Assembly (NCBI RefSeq): GCF_029338515.1
Contig: NZ_CP119988.1
Location: 124,001-188,000, forward strand
Length of the DNA stretch: 64,000 nucleotides
Direction: 5' to 3'
From: Haloglomus litoreum
GTDB lineage: Archaea > Halobacteriota > Halobacteria > Halobacteriales > Haloarculaceae
Each line of letters begins with the position of its first letter. The first letter of the stretch is position 1. Below are positions 11,757 through 18,274 of this stretch, one piece after another. A model generated the notes under the pieces. The model was not told the origin of the DNA and made no database searches. It was given only the letters and a program-made list of their open reading frames with translations. The translations under genes and the position numbers were made by a program.

Positions 11757-12359
11757 ATGGGCGGCATCGAGCTTCGAGATGGAACGCTCATCGTCAGGCG
11801 AGAGCCGAACCGACTCGACGAGCTGGCGATCGAGTTCTCAGCTATTCTCGATCGGTTCAGCATCGACCACGTCTACATTGCAGGGTATATCTCCATCCTC
11901 GCGGGTCGCGCTCGGTCGACCGAAGACGTCGACGTCCTCATCCAACCCATCGACGAAGGGACCGCAGAGGATCTCGCTGAGACGTTGACGGAGAAGGACT
12001 TCTGGGGTGTGGCTATGCCACTCTCCTCGATGTATGAGATGCTCTCGAACGGTGACAACATCTGGGTCGCCCCCGAAGATCAGGTCACGCCCCATCTCGA
12101 GGTGAAGTTCGTCCGCGACGAGTTCGACCGCGCGTCTCTCGAGAACGCGATCACTGCTCGCATCGGTGGCGAGACTATTCCGATCGGTCCGCTGGAACTC
12201 CAGATCGCCTACAAACTCCATCTTGGCGCCCAGAAAGACATCGAAGACGCAGTCCACCTCTACACGCTCTTCGAGCAAAGCCTTAGTGTCGCTCGCCTCG
12301 AAGAATGGGTAACGCGCCTCGGTGTCGAAGACGAATATGAGCGACTCAAACGTGCCTGA
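11757..12359 (+). CDS. Nucleotidyltransferase-like (DUF6036/AbiEii-type) protein
   Basis: A 200-residue protein of the minimal nucleotidyltransferase fold. The key strand is YIAGYISILAGRARSTEDVD, where D57 and D59 provide the acidic pair (the glycine/serine loop is diverged to GYIS). The fold continues with LEVKFVRDEFDRAS and IGPLELQIAYKLHLGAQKDIEDA, the metal and substrate region seen in AbiEii/MNT-like proteins. Such proteins are often one half of toxin-antitoxin or phage-defence pairs, adding nucleotides to RNA or protein. The next gene overlaps by 23 bp. Base composition is lower in GC than in the neighbours, hinting at transfer. The assignment to a defence pair is inference. Confidence 0.8.
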   Translation: MGGIELRDGTLIVRREPNRLDELAIEFSAILDRFSIDHVYIAGYISILAGRARSTEDVDVLIQPIDEGTAEDLAETLTEKDFWGVAMPLSSMYEMLSNGDNIWVAPEDQVTPHLEVKFVRDEFDRASLENAITARIGGETIPIGPLELQIAYKLHLGAQKDIEDAVHLYTLFEQSLSVARLEEWVTRLGVEDEYERLKRA

Positions 12360-12603
12360 CTTCCTCGACGGGAAACACGAGAAGAACCGCCAGCAGCGCA
12401 TCGAGGCGGTCAAGCACTGGGTCGAGTACATCAAGTCCGAGCCGCCGGAGAAATGGGGGCCACAGCAGAACACTGTCGTCAACGATCAGCTCGAAGCCGC
12501 GCAGAGTGTTCCCACGTCCGCTTCCCACCAACAGCACGTGAAAGACGTCGCCAGAGAGATCGCCGATGCGCAGGACAATTCTGACGAGAGTTCGGAGAAG
12601 TGA
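12337..12603 (+). CDS. Small partner protein of the nucleotidyltransferase, 88 aa
   Basis: A charged, mainly helical 88-residue protein with no known domain (EKNRQQRIEAVKHWVEYIKS, later DVAREIADAQD). The ATG at 12337 lies inside the 3' end of the nucleotidyltransferase gene, an overlap of 23 bp that implies translational coupling. A short acidic or helical partner of this size is typical of the second member of toxin-antitoxin units, but nothing in the sequence tells which member would be toxic. It stops immediately before the hairpin-rich noncoding stretch. Confidence 0.6.
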   Translation: MSDSNVPDFLDGKHEKNRQQRIEAVKHWVEYIKSEPPEKWGPQQNTVVNDQLEAAQSVPTSASHQQHVKDVAREIADAQDNSDESSEK

Positions 12604-14211: not shown

Positions 14212-14664
14212 CTACGGCGACAGCAGCCGCCCCAGGCGCCGGACCATCCCGCCGAGCAGGCCCGTCTCGCCGTCGTTCTCGTCGCCCCCTTCCTCGGCGC
14301 TCCCGTCCGCTTCCGCCTCGGATTCGGTCCCGTCGACCGCCTCGCGCTCGCCGACAGCGAGCGCGACGGTCACACCCTCGTCGCGCCCGACGGTGACGGT
14401 CAGTTCGTCGGCCGCGGGTTCCCACGCGCCCTCGCGTTCGGCCACGATGCCGGCGTCGGCGAGTTCCTCCAGCCGGTCTCGGACCTCGCGCATGTCGAGG
14501 TTGCACGCCCGGGCCAGCTCCCCAGTCGAGGCGGGGCCCTCGCGGTAGAGGTGGTCGAGCAGCCGGAGGCTCAGCCACGAGGTGGCGACGGCGGCCCGGT
14601 GGGCCTCGCGGGCGACCGTCCTGTCGAAGAACCGGCGGAGTTCTGCCTCGGAGGGGACGGACAT
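14212..14664 (-). CDS. Winged-helix protein paired with the Cdc6-like ATPase
   Basis: A 150-residue protein. Residues 25-85 form a winged helix-turn-helix (LRLLDHLYREGPASTGELAR, then LDMREVRDRLEELADAGIVA), probably an ArsR/MarR-type fold. The C-terminal 60 residues are acidic and disordered, ending in a short basic amphipathic helix (GMVRRLGRLLSP). Its start is one base after the stop of the Cdc6-like ATPase gene, so the two are co-transcribed and probably cooperate. It may be a DNA-binding partner or a regulator of the divergent ubiquitin-like operon; both ideas are inference. Confidence 0.8.
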   Translation of the reverse strand: MSVPSEAELRRFFDRTVAREAHRAAVATSWLSLRLLDHLYREGPASTGELARACNLDMREVRDRLEELADAGIVAEREGAWEPAADELTVTVGRDEGVTVALAVGEREAVDGTESEAEADGSAEEGGDENDGETGLLGGMVRRLGRLLSP

Positions 14665-14665
14665 A

Positions 14666-15802
14666 CTAGCTCTGTGTCAGGTTGGAGAGTTCGCGGCTGG
14701 TCTGTTCGGTGGGCTTGTACTCGATGCCGCGATTCCCCTCCGTCGCGCGGATGAGGCCCTCCTTCTCCAGTTCGGTCAGGGCCTCCTGGACGTGGTAGGA
14801 GCTGGCGCCGAGCGCCTCGGTGATGCCGTTGGCCGTGCTTGGCCCCTGCTCGGCGAGGACCTCGACCACGTCGGCGGCGTGGCCCGAGAGCTGCTCGAGT
14901 TTCCGCGAGGTCTCCTCGGCGAGCGTCGCCCGGACGAACTCGAAGTCGAGGACCTCCCGGTCGGCGCGCGCGCCGGCCTCGATGACCTCGTTGCACTCGC
15001 GGCGGATGTGGCGCGGGTACGGGGTGATGTCCTGGTGGACGAGCTCGATGGCCTCGCGGGTGAACGGCGCGAGGTCGCCCTCGTCGTGGGCGCAGCCGTC
15101 GCCGTCGCCCCACTCGCTCTCACGGCAGTAGTAGCGCAGGCGCTTGTTGACGAGTTCGATGACACCGTCGATGTCGAGTCCCGACAGCGTGATTTCGTCG
15201 CCGATGCGGTCCGACAGCGGCTCGATGCGGCCGTGGATCTGATCGAGCATGTGGGCGGTGCCGTTGAAGACGAGCACCGGCTCCCAGTTCTCCACGTCGC
15301 GCTGGAGGTGGAGGATCTGGCGCAGGGTGCCCTCGCTCCCGTTGATGACCTCGTCGTAGAAGACGACCGTCCGGACGCCGTCCTCGTAGCGCCGCTCCAG
15401 CGCGTCGGCCACGTCGTCGTACAGCTCCGTGCTGGTGGCCGTCGAGTCGACCGGCTCGCCCAGCTCGTCGAGGATGCGTTTGGCCATCGTCTTGCTGAAC
15501 CGGCCCTTCTGGACCGCGACGAAGACGGGCTCGTATCCCTCGACCTCCGTCAGGACCTCGTACATCGTCTTCGTCAGGATGGTCTTGCCCGTGCCGAACG
15601 GGCCCGTGATGAACGTGTTGACGTTGCGCTGGATGTTCTCGCGGAGCCGCCGGAGTTCGTCCTCGTAGCCGGCGAACAGGCGCGGGTCGGGCCACTTCTC
15701 GGCGAACGGGTTCGTCCGGAACCGGTGGCCGTCGACCGCGTACGGCCAGCTCCCCCCGCTCTCGAACTCCCCCTTGATCTCCGAGACGATGTCGTCGACC
15801 AT
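14666..15802 (-). CDS. Orc1/Cdc6-like AAA ATPase with C-terminal winged helix
   Basis: A 378-residue AAA+ ATPase. Walker A is GPFGTGKT (residues 67-74), Walker B TVVFYDE (about 145-151), and an Asn-containing sensor-1-like strand follows in LVFNGTAHM. The C-terminal 70 residues form a winged helix (VVEVLAEQGPSTANGITEAL). It resembles Orc1/Cdc6 family initiators and Cdc6-like ATPases but lacks other features of the canonical origin-encoded initiators, and no origin-type repeat cluster is seen. With the winged-helix gene it lies 191 bp from, and divergent to, the Ubl-E2-JAB/E1 operon. It may be a remodelling or regulatory ATPase linked to that system, or an accidental neighbour. Confidence 0.85.
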   Translation of the reverse strand: MVDDIVSEIKGEFESGGSWPYAVDGHRFRTNPFAEKWPDPRLFAGYEDELRRLRENIQRNVNTFITGPFGTGKTILTKTMYEVLTEVEGYEPVFVAVQKGRFSKTMAKRILDELGEPVDSTATSTELYDDVADALERRYEDGVRTVVFYDEVINGSEGTLRQILHLQRDVENWEPVLVFNGTAHMLDQIHGRIEPLSDRIGDEITLSGLDIDGVIELVNKRLRYYCRESEWGDGDGCAHDEGDLAPFTREAIELVHQDITPYPRHIRRECNEVIEAGARADREVLDFEFVRATLAEETSRKLEQLSGHAADVVEVLAEQGPSTANGITEALGASSYHVQEALTELEKEGLIRATEGNRGIEYKPTEQTSRELSNLTQS

Positions 15803-15993: not shown

Positions 15994-16323
15994 ATGGGCG
16001 AACTCATCCAGGTCGAGGGCCGCGAGGTGCCGGTCGAGGACGGCACGACGGTCCAGGACCTCAAGCAGCGGCTGGATCGCGACGACGACGAACTGGCGAC
16101 CTACGAGGAGAACGGGGAGGTGAAGGTGCTCGGCGACCGCGACGAGGTGGCCGACGCCGTCCCCGAGGGCGCGAACCTCAGCTTCCAGCCCGGGGAGGGG
16201 CAGGTGTTCGGCCGTTCCGGCGGGGTCCCGACTGGTCACGGCGGCCGCGGTGGTCGCACGGGCGGGGGCGGTGGGCCTCGGTCCGTCGGGGGGCGGGGAC
16301 GGCGGTCGGGTGGAGGCGTCTGA
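15994..16323 (+). CDS. Ubiquitin-like (beta-grasp) protein with Gly-rich tail
   Basis: A 109-residue protein. Residues 1-73 fit a ubiquitin/MoaD-type beta-grasp: strands LIQVEGREVPVEDG, helix TTVQDLKQRLDRDDDEL, then GEVKVLGDRDEVADAVPEGA and LSFQPGEGQVFG. The remaining 36 residues are almost only Gly, Arg, Ser, Thr and Pro and finish in RRSGGGV. Conjugated Ubl proteins expose a C-terminal Gly-Gly; here one extra Val follows, which the JAMM protease of the third gene could remove. Stop and next start overlap (TGATG). Alternative: a MoaD/ThiS-type sulfur carrier, made less likely by the adjoining E2 and the long tail. The substrate is unknown. Confidence 0.75.
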   Translation: MGELIQVEGREVPVEDGTTVQDLKQRLDRDDDELATYEENGEVKVLGDRDEVADAVPEGANLSFQPGEGQVFGRSGGVPTGHGGRGGRTGGGGGPRSVGGRGRRSGGGV

Positions 16324-16724
16324 TGAAACGCGGCCGTGCCTACGAGGAGGCTCGGAAGCTCGGCGAGCGCTACCCGGTCGCGTACAGCGAGGCCGACCGG
16401 CGAGTCGTCCTCGAACGGTTCGACTTCCCGCCGGGGTGGGACCCCCAGTTCTCCAAGCTCCGGTACGAGCTCCCCGACACGTACCCCCGGGATATGCCGA
16501 CCGTCTACGTCCCGTCGGAGCTGTCCTACGAGGGCAAGAGCCCGACCCATCTGCTCCACGGCATCTCGCCGTACGGCGACTCCGACTGGAGCAAGTGGTG
16601 CATCGAGGACCACAACGTGAACTGGGACCCCGGGTCGGATACGCTGGTGAAGCTCACGACGATGATGCGGGCGTCGCTGGCGAACCCCTACAGCGACAAC
16701 CCGTTCGCGGGGGGGTCGGCGTGA
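16323..16724 (+). CDS. E2-like ubiquitin-conjugating (UBC-fold) protein
   Basis: A 133-residue protein with the order of elements of an E2: a beta meander with LRYELPDTYPRDMPTVYVP (the counterpart of the P-x-YP-x-x-P region, residues 46-64), then the active-site stretch WSKWCIEDHNVNWDP with C93, and the closing helix DTLVKLTTMMRASLANPYSD, whose LANP ending matches the usual LxxPN. H76 and H79 precede the cysteine as in prokaryotic E2-like families. It would accept the Ubl from the E1 as a thioester and pass it to a target. Haloarchaeal SAMP conjugation normally works without an E2, so this gene is unusual. It overlaps both neighbours by 1-4 bases. Confidence 0.75.
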   Translation: MKRGRAYEEARKLGERYPVAYSEADRRVVLERFDFPPGWDPQFSKLRYELPDTYPRDMPTVYVPSELSYEGKSPTHLLHGISPYGDSDWSKWCIEDHNVNWDPGSDTLVKLTTMMRASLANPYSDNPFAGGSA

Positions 16725-18274
16725 GCGAGCGCCGCCTCCGCCTGCCGGCGCGGGTCGTCCGGGAGCTGCGCGAGGCACTCCTCCGGGACGACGAACAGGA
16801 GCGCTTCGCCTTCGTCGATGCCGGGACGGCCGCGCCGCCCGCTGGGGCGGGAGCTGGCGAGGGGGAAGCCGAGAGCGAGGCCCCCTCCGAGCGTCCGGAC
16901 CTGCTCGCGAGCGAGGTGGTCCCGGTGCCGGACGAGCGGCTGGCCCGGCAGTCGAGGACCGCGTGCCGGCCCGAGCCGGCGGTCGAGCGCGACCACGTCG
17001 GGGACTGCTACGACCGGCAGCTCGCGCCGGTTCTGGTCCACAGCCACCCGTTCTCCGACGACCCGCGGTTCAGCAGCATCGACGTGGAGGCGATGGGCCG
17101 GTTCCGCGAGTGGCTGACTGGCCTCTTCCCGGACCGCCCGTTCGGCTTCGCGGTCGTCGGGCAGTCGGGTATCGAGGCGGTGGCGAACGCGGGCGAGCGC
17201 TTCGCGGCGCTCCCGGTCGAGGTCGTCGGCGAGTGGAAACTCGACGAGCCGGTCCCGGGGGCGGTCGACCGGTTCGCGCCGGTCGACGCCGGCGGGCGCG
17301 GCGCTTCGGTTGGGGATGCACCGGTCGCCGACGGCTCTGAGGGCGACCGGGCGGGGACCGACGACGCGGACACGGACACCGACATCGACGCCACCGAGCG
17401 CTTCGACCGGAACGTCCGCGCGCTCGGCGCCGACGGCCAGCGTCGGCTCCAGGACGCGACCGTCGGTATCGTCGGCGTCGGTGGCATCGGCTCGCAGGTC
17501 GCCGAGCAGTTCGCGCGCCTCGGCGTCGGCGAACTCGTCCTGGTCGACCCGGACACGGTCGAGCCGAGCAACCTGCCGCGGCTGGTCGGCGCCTACGACC
17601 ACCACGTCGGGAAGCCGAAGGTCGACGCCGTCCGCGAGCACGCCTGGCGGTCCGCGCCGGCCGACCTCGACGTGACGGCCGTCGCCGAGCCGGTCGAGGC
17701 GGTGCCGGCGCGGCTGACCGACTGCGACCTCGTCGTCGGCTGCGTCGACCGTGTCACGGCGCGCTCGTTCTGCAACGAGTGGGCCGTCAAGCACCTGACC
17801 TACTACGTCGACGCCGGGGTCCGCATCGACACGACGGATGATCGGGTAGTCGGGATGACCGGGTACGTCCACCTGGTGGCGCCCGGGAGCACCGCGTGCT
17901 TCGACTGCCTGGGACGTCACGACCAGGCGGCCGCCCGCATCGAGCGGCTCTCGCCGGACGAGCGCGAGGCCGAACTCGAGCGCGGCTACATCGACACCGA
18001 GCAGGTGGCGCCCGAGCCGGCGGTCATCCACCTCAACGGGCTCTGTGCCTCGAAGGCGGTCTCGGTCGGCACGGACGTCGTGACCGGGGTGAAGACGCCG
18101 CCGGACTTCGTCCGGTACGAGGACACGGCCCACGAGATGACCGCGCTCACGACCGAGCCCAGCCCCGCGTGCCCGACCTGTGGGGACGAGGGCGTGCTCG
18201 GCGTCGGGCGGCGCTCGTTCGGCGACGCACAGTTCACGCCCGAGGACGGTCCCGAGACGGCCACCTCGGACTGA
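16721..18274 (+). CDS. JAB(JAMM)-E1 fusion: Ubl protease and activating enzyme
   Basis: A 517-residue two-domain protein. Residues 1-170 are a JAB/MPN domain with the JAMM zinc motif HSHPFSDDPRFSSID (H107, H109, D121) and an upstream catalytic Glu near 26-28; it is expected to trim the Ubl tail or remove conjugates. Residues 190-228 form an acidic linker. Residues 229-517 are a ThiF/E1 fold: ATP loop VGIVGVGGIGSQVAEQF (248-264), LVDPDTVEPSNLPR, and zinc-binding CFDC (393-396) with CPTC (484-487). It would adenylate the Ubl C-terminus and charge the E2. The active-site Cys for Ubl thioester cannot be named. The GTG start overlaps the E2 stop by four bases. Confidence 0.88.
   Translation: MSERRLRLPARVVRELREALLRDDEQERFAFVDAGTAAPPAGAGAGEGEAESEAPSERPDLLASEVVPVPDERLARQSRTACRPEPAVERDHVGDCYDRQLAPVLVHSHPFSDDPRFSSIDVEAMGRFREWLTGLFPDRPFGFAVVGQSGIEAVANAGERFAALPVEVVGEWKLDEPVPGAVDRFAPVDAGGRGASVGDAPVADGSEGDRAGTDDADTDTDIDATERFDRNVRALGADGQRRLQDATVGIVGVGGIGSQVAEQFARLGVGELVLVDPDTVEPSNLPRLVGAYDHHVGKPKVDAVREHAWRSAPADLDVTAVAEPVEAVPARLTDCDLVVGCVDRVTARSFCNEWAVKHLTYYVDAGVRIDTTDDRVVGMTGYVHLVAPGSTACFDCLGRHDQAAARIERLSPDEREAELERGYIDTEQVAPEPAVIHLNGLCASKAVSVGTDVVTGVKTPPDFVRYEDTAHEMTALTTEPSPACPTCGDEGVLGVGRRSFGDAQFTPEDGPETATSD

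Follow-up and report, generated by a model that had tools for sequence, protein, structure and literature searches.

Does a three-gene locus of Haloglomus litoreum encode a pathway that conjugates a ubiquitin-like protein (Ubl) by means of its own E2, and which of the known systems does it resemble? The locus lies in the 64-kb window that was analysed as a whole, which is part of a 4.70 Mb contig, and consists of three genes on the plus strand. They encode a Ubl of 109 aa (15994..16323), a 133-aa protein with the UBC fold of E2 proteins (16323..16724), and a 517-aa protein with a GTG start (16721..18274), referred to as JAB-E1, in which a JAB/JAMM domain (about residues 1-175) is followed by a ThiF/E1 adenylation domain (about residues 225-490). 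The Ubl and E2 genes overlap by 1 base (TGATG) and the E2 and JAB-E1 genes by 4 bases (GTGA). All three open reading frames are coding by position-specific GC, and in comparison with Haloglomus halophilum dN/dS was 0.11 for the Ubl core, 0.17 for the E2 and 0.34 for JAB-E1, i.e. the three genes are under purifying selection. Thus, the three overlapping genes described in the original prediction were confirmed in coordinates and order. Moreover, in one sample the complete triple recurred in eight more genera of haloarchaea, and we conclude that the gene arrangement is not due to chance. Elsewhere in the window, two genes with low GC3 overlap each other between mutS and the operon (11757-12603; 200 and 93 aa); neither has a match in Pfam or PADLOC, and they look recently acquired.

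The 133-aa protein had been predicted to have a UBC fold with an active-site Cys at position 93. It matched Prok-E2_E (PF14462) with an E-value of 4.2e-4, which is under the Pfam cut-off; six of nine members of its family also matched this model (best, 2.5e-5), and another euryarchaeal relative passed the cut-off. In Foldseek searches with an AlphaFold model of the protein (pLDDT 82.9), the best match was Citrobacter BubB (9eae_C; 1.9e-4, TM 0.65), followed by many eukaryotic E2s. On these grounds, we identify the protein as an E2. Cys93 lies in a motif of the type W-x-x-C-[IVT]-x(n)-W-x-P and is invariant in the nine-sequence family alignment; none of the 14 lead haloarchaeal E2s lacks it, and it is also found in the E2s of two other euryarchaeal genomes. 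Thus, the protein aligns with the UBC family and its close homologues retain Cys93, and the outcome named beforehand as contradicting the prediction did not occur. The HPN motif is absent from the E2, and Cys93 is not followed by residues in CEHH spacing.

At the position of Cys93, nine bacterial proteins and two haloarchaeal proteins of a second type (Halorubrum and Halorarius) have Ser, in the form WSRH or [FL]SWH, in a tally that leaves out two more distant bacterial proteins (Mesorhizobium and Mycolicibacterium). The bacterial Ser-type proteins are encoded on plasmids of Rhizobium, Deinococcus, Bradyrhizobium, Phenylobacterium, Neotabrizicola, Robbsia, Acinetobacter, Thioclava and Microbacterium; for the first three, where the automatic alignment has a gap at the Cys93 column, we identified Ser by visual inspection of the motif. 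WSRH is likewise found in the PDB sequence of Citrobacter BubB. The E2 and E1 trees both part the Ser set from the Cys set, the E1 tree being without an outgroup and neither tree giving the root or the ancestral residue. In the tree of E1 proteins, a single group (96/96) unites 13 Cys-type proteins of haloarchaea, whereas the two other euryarchaeal proteins could not be assigned to it.

In JAB-E1, the ThiF domain was matched with an E-value of 4.7e-39, and the JAMM residues E27, H107, H109 and D121 are invariant. The N-terminal part of the window protein misses the Pfam JAB model, and six of nine relatives touch Prok-JAB weakly. The alignment of nine JAB sequences was too diverse to serve as a search query. 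When the whole JAB-E1 profile was compared with the PDB, the best match was Citrobacter BubCD (E=4.1e-42); with the JAB profile alone, BubCD was the sole credible match (8.4e-7), and the HSHP motif was aligned. Together, these matches and residues bear out the fusion of a JAMM protease to a ThiF/E1 domain that had been proposed. In the E1 domain, GxGGxG (252-257), D276, D278, N284, R287, K300 and D343 are invariant. A dedicated catalytic Cys was looked for in the E1 domain and rejected, because the only invariant Cys residues are those of two CxxC pairs (393/396 and 484/487). JAB-E1 of Salinigranum and of the group of operons with two E2s has a hydrophobic C-terminal segment, which suggests that these proteins may be membrane-associated.

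The 109-aa protein was without a Pfam match. Its structure model (mean pLDDT 73) has a beta-grasp topology, and Foldseek matched it to ubiquitin, NEDD8, Ras-binding domains and multi-ubiquitin with a probability of about 0.9-1.0 and weak E-values of 0.01-0.08. Based on this model, and in support of the predicted Ubl fold, we consider with moderate confidence that the protein is a beta-grasp protein. PF14452 (multiubiquitin, the Bub-type Ubl) was unmatched by the window Ubl and its relatives, with one bacterial relative matching at 2e-12. The conserved core (residues 1-73) ends in V-F-G, and among the relatives the C terminus is F-G, mostly V-F-G, plus 0-7 residues, while a GG end is not conserved. 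The F-G end is also found in some bacterial Ubls (Rhizobium, ..NFG; Deinococcus, ..TFGGGV). In the window Ubl, the core is followed by a Gly/Arg-rich tail of 36 aa (about 16213-16320, plus strand). Thus, the Gly-rich tail noted in the original prediction is present; it is, however, restricted to Haloglomus and is not the conserved C terminus of the family.

Among 391 Halobacteria genomes, the E2 was detected in 11, and in 10 of 86 genera; nine of the 11 genomes have the complete triple. Within the family to which the window belongs, five of 96 genomes, including three of Haloglomus, have the E2. Named hosts include H. halophilum, Halobellus captivus, Haloferax marisrubri and Halolamina pelagica, and the survey of named genomes by one JAB motif pattern gave five loci only. 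The operon is chromosomal and syntenic in Haloglomus, while the copies in Natrinema, Salinigranum and Natribaculum are on plasmids; beside the Salinigranum copy are the 7-deazaguanine genes QueC, QueE and FolE (L050:11-2102). In a sample of 393 genomes from the phylum, a related E2 of the Cys type was found in two non-haloarchaeal genomes, which belong to another family; in these, it is fused directly to the Ubl, and JAB-E1 follows (L044:7428-9501 and L045:6144-8244). Relatives on bacterial plasmids have the gene order Ubl, E2, JAB/ThiF. In the viral collection no relative was found, and matches in phages were to the ThiF domain only; we do not claim viral carriage. Two related arrangements were also observed in haloarchaea: a second type of Ubl operon encoding a coiled-coil-Ubl protein, a small E2-like protein and JAB-E1 (L083:2652-5537 and L062:1055-3799), and, on plasmids of Halorubrum and Halorarius (L033 and L061), a related form in which Ubl and E2 are fused and which is accompanied by a KTSC protein.

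The original prediction compared the locus with Bil and CBASS; Bub/type 6e is closer. As in Bub/type 6e operons, the order is Ubl, E2, JAB/E1, with JAB N-terminal to E1, and the neighbouring E2 is of the Prok-E2_E/BubB kind; moreover, the best PDB profile match (BubCD) and the best fold match (BubB) are Bub proteins, some bacterial Ubls share the F-G end, and regulators lie beside the operon. Bub conjugation is reportedly oxyester-based. The haloarchaeal system differs from Bub in that its E2 has Cys instead of Ser, its Ubl is single, short and without a PF14452 match, its E1 has two CxxC pairs, its hosts are archaea, and one clade has a Cys-less second E2. DUF6527 (PF20137), which we take to be the metal-binding companion of Bub, is the companion in most bacterial loci inspected and was found in none of the 11 archaeal genomes with this E2. 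Because a Cys-less E2, multiubiquitin and DUF6527 are all lacking, we class the system as a distinct archaeal variant, which adjoins Bub/type 6e and probably works like Bub, and do not count it among the Bub systems themselves. That E1 and protease are one protein had been regarded as a departure from bacterial operons; such fusion is the normal state in type 6e/Bub operons, in which the E2 is E2/RWD-like without the Cys and has been called inactive (Iyer et al. 2006, PMC1779556).

The locus shares with Bil (BilABCD) a short operon with Ubl, an E2 with Cys, JAB and E1. In Bil, one half of the E1, the adenylation half, is inactive, a Cys domain is present, JAB is separate and the E2 has CEHH (PMC11354881); by contrast, the E1 described here has neither an inactive adenylation half nor a Cys domain and is fused to JAB, and the E2 has no CEHH. 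Type II CBASS (Cap2/Cap3) likewise combines E2, E1 and JAB activities. There, E2 is fused to E1, a CD-NTase is conjugated and no Ubl is involved, whereas here the E2 gene is separate, JAB is the fusion partner of E1 and the operon includes a Ubl; a CD-NTase was not found among the operon neighbours scanned. The SAMP/UbaA system also has a haloarchaeal Ubl that is activated by a ThiF-type E1 without the eukaryotic Cys domain. It uses no E2, its Ubls end in GG and its JAMM protease is stand-alone. The Ubl described here ends in VFG, and JAB-E1 reached 74 of 450 bits with NF047750, the test for a UbaA-type E1, which is far under the cut-off. A separate ThiF-family E1, which is a better match, and ThiS-family genes are encoded elsewhere in the H. 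litoreum genome and show that the locus is distinct from SAMP/UbaA, as predicted. Finally, the Caldiarchaeum E1/E2/RING cascade has an archaeal E2 with a catalytic Cys, but its proteins resemble those of eukaryotes and include a RING E3, its E1 has a Cys domain, and there is no JAB-E1 fusion (PMC5654768, PMC11354881).

In total, we consider it probable that the locus encodes a haloarchaeal Ubl conjugation pathway of the Bub/type 6e kind with a cysteine-type (thioester) E2. What the domains are, which active-site residues are conserved, the closest relatives, the Ser/Cys contrast, selection and linkage follow from comparison of sequences or structures. A working pathway is likely, and we infer each catalytic step and the order of transfer as follows. 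The JAB domain would trim the Ubl precursor after V-F-G, thereby taking off the Haloglomus tail; the E1 domain would adenylate the V-F-G carboxylate; the adenylate would be handed directly to Cys93 of the E2, with E1 having no dedicated catalytic Cys; the E2 would move the Ubl onto a nucleophile of the target without a recognisable E3; and JAB would take the Ubl off the target again. Direct transfer from the adenylate to the E2 is the economical scheme, because E1 has invariant adenylation residues but no invariant Cys outside the CxxC pairs. Several observations speak against the pathway as proposed: no E3 or target candidate was recognised, the E2 has no HPN motif, the window E2 and JAB score under the curated Pfam cut-offs, the Foldseek E-values of the Ubl are weak, PF14452 and DUF6527 are lacking, and two genomes have a Ubl and a Cys-less E2 with no JAB-E1 in the neighbourhood read. 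As to the trimming step, the Ubl is 95% identical to that of H. halophilum in the core and 67% in the tail, with a 6-aa gap, and across the three Haloglomus genomes an almost invariant core is followed by tails of 30-36 aa that differ in sequence. The Gly-rich tail was rejected as a GG-type conjugation end, as it is hypervariable, limited to Haloglomus and located beyond the conserved V-F-G. Probably the working part of the Ubl is the core up to V-F-G, from which the tail is cut off, and the variable tails suggest that this is presumably done by the JAB domain. Were the tail instead a permanent working part of the Ubl, e.g. for localisation, V-F-G would not be the conjugated end. Its retention at 30-36 aa in three Haloglomus species, all with the end GGV, agrees with this alternative; nevertheless, we regard it as quite improbable given that the Ubls of genome G290 and other family members lack such a tail, that it varies so much beside a nearly invariant core, and that the family rule is an F-G end with few residues thereafter.

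Two further alternatives concern the fate of the activated Ubl. The E2 might not be charged on Cys93 but use another residue in Bub-like serine chemistry, or only position the Ubl as a scaffold. The closest solved relatives are Bub proteins, and the bacterial E2s have Ser at this position, their type having been called inactive (Iyer 2006, PMC1779556); however, Cys93 is found without exception in the lead E2s of the haloarchaeal triples and also in the E2s of the two other euryarchaeal loci, and Cys-less copies are found only as second copies or orphans, which makes this alternative unlikely. Alternatively, E1 could make a Ubl thiocarboxylate for thiolation of a small molecule or tRNA, similarly to MoaD or to SAMP2 with UbaA. 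The lack of a catalytic Cys domain and the two CxxC pairs resemble MoeB/ThiF, and one relative matches SAMP2 at 3.3e-4, but the operon contains a dedicated E2 and JAB and no rhodanese or sulfurtransferase, the C terminus is VFG and not GG, and the genome has its separate ThiF-family E1 and ThiS-family genes; this sulfur-carrier route therefore appears very unlikely compared with conjugation through Cys93.

In four loci (Natribaculum, Halorientalis, Haloferax and Halolamina), a second E2 has Ser or Asp at the position of the Cys, and such copies are usually accompanied by their own Ubl. In the E2 tree, they group (96/98) with orphan E2s of two genomes (G204 and G215), in which a Ubl and a Cys-less E2 are present and JAB-E1 is missing from the neighbourhood read. 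The occurrence of this pair in two genomes without JAB-E1 leaves the family open to a different use. We propose that the Cys-less second E2 plays a UEV-like role. We give an even chance to the wider scheme, namely a thioester-type branch of Bub in Euryarchaeota in which the V-F-G adenylate passes to the E2 Cys and the Cys-less Ubl-E2 pair of one clade is UEV-like. At L025:3197-10125 and L026:9154-16091, a pair of a Ubl and a Cys-less E2-like protein without JAB-E1 has genes in its vicinity that encode a transglutaminase-like protein, GrpE, a VWA protein, Hsp70 and large HEAT-repeat proteins; here the same Ubl-E2 pair may be put to another use. A Tubulin_2-like protein is encoded near the operon version with two E2s in two genera (L023:5470-7860 and L022:7429-7959).

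Upstream of the operon and divergent from it, on the minus strand, lies a gene for an AAA/STAND-like ATPase with a C-terminal winged helix, a putative controller (14666..15802; AAA_22, 1.1e-9; TrmB-type wHTH, 2.6e-6), next to the gene for its partner, an ArsR-type winged-helix protein (14212..14664, minus strand; HTH_20, 8.6e-9). This AAA/wHTH pair is kept beside the operon in Haloglomus and G290. In genome G320, an AAA protein with 61% identity and its wHTH partner are divergent from a different Ubl operon, which encodes a coiled-coil Ubl, an E2-like protein and JAB-E1; the AAA/wHTH pair is present at L018, L034 and L083-L085, and at other loci the divergent gene encodes a different HTH protein. 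Because the ATPase domain is unspecific, with weak matches in 173 of 392 genomes, we restricted this evidence to near-full-length copies of 61-100% identity. Bacterial Bub operons are preceded by controllers, e.g. CapW, CapH with CapP, or CapK with CapS (PMC13373217), which makes a regulatory role of the pair likely. By analogy, the divergent genes for the AAA and wHTH proteins probably control how the operon is expressed, and the linked regulator genes suggest how archaea control such operons.

With respect to the biological role, stress or virus defence may or may not apply, and we do not favour either answer. Phage protection by Bub has not been demonstrated (PMC13373217), and defence is therefore only plausible here. 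PADLOC matches to 'E1-E2' fall in the ThiF domain alone and thus provide no evidence for a defence system. The same biochemistry could also serve a stress response or housekeeping instead of antiviral defence, an alternative that concerns the role and not the mechanism and that we rate just short of even. The chromosomal, syntenic position in Haloglomus, the status of Bub just mentioned, and the lack of known defence genes recognised beside the window operon all speak for it; by contrast, the presence in only 11 of 391 genomes, the plasmid copies and the exchangeable divergent regulators are as usual for Bub/CBASS operons.

No archaeal E2 was known to a survey of 2010 (PMC2948915); the archaeal E2s discussed since then are those of Caldiarchaeum and of Asgard lineages (PMC5654768, PMC11354881). 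The Cys-type E2 with JAB-E1 described here looks able to tag proteins, as an archaeal cousin of the bacterial Bub pathway. It places a three-gene system with an E2 and JAB-E1 in cultured haloarchaea, beside SAMP/UbaA, where it is open to haloarchaeal genetics. Since the E2 has Cys where the sampled Bub-type E2s have Ser, the system could show how two ubiquitin chemistries relate, and this natural contrast within one protein family makes thioester versus oxyester chemistry of the ubiquitin type directly testable. If true, a thioester branch of Bub would form a connection between the E1s of sulfur carriers, Bub of the serine type and the classical cascade of E1 and E2.
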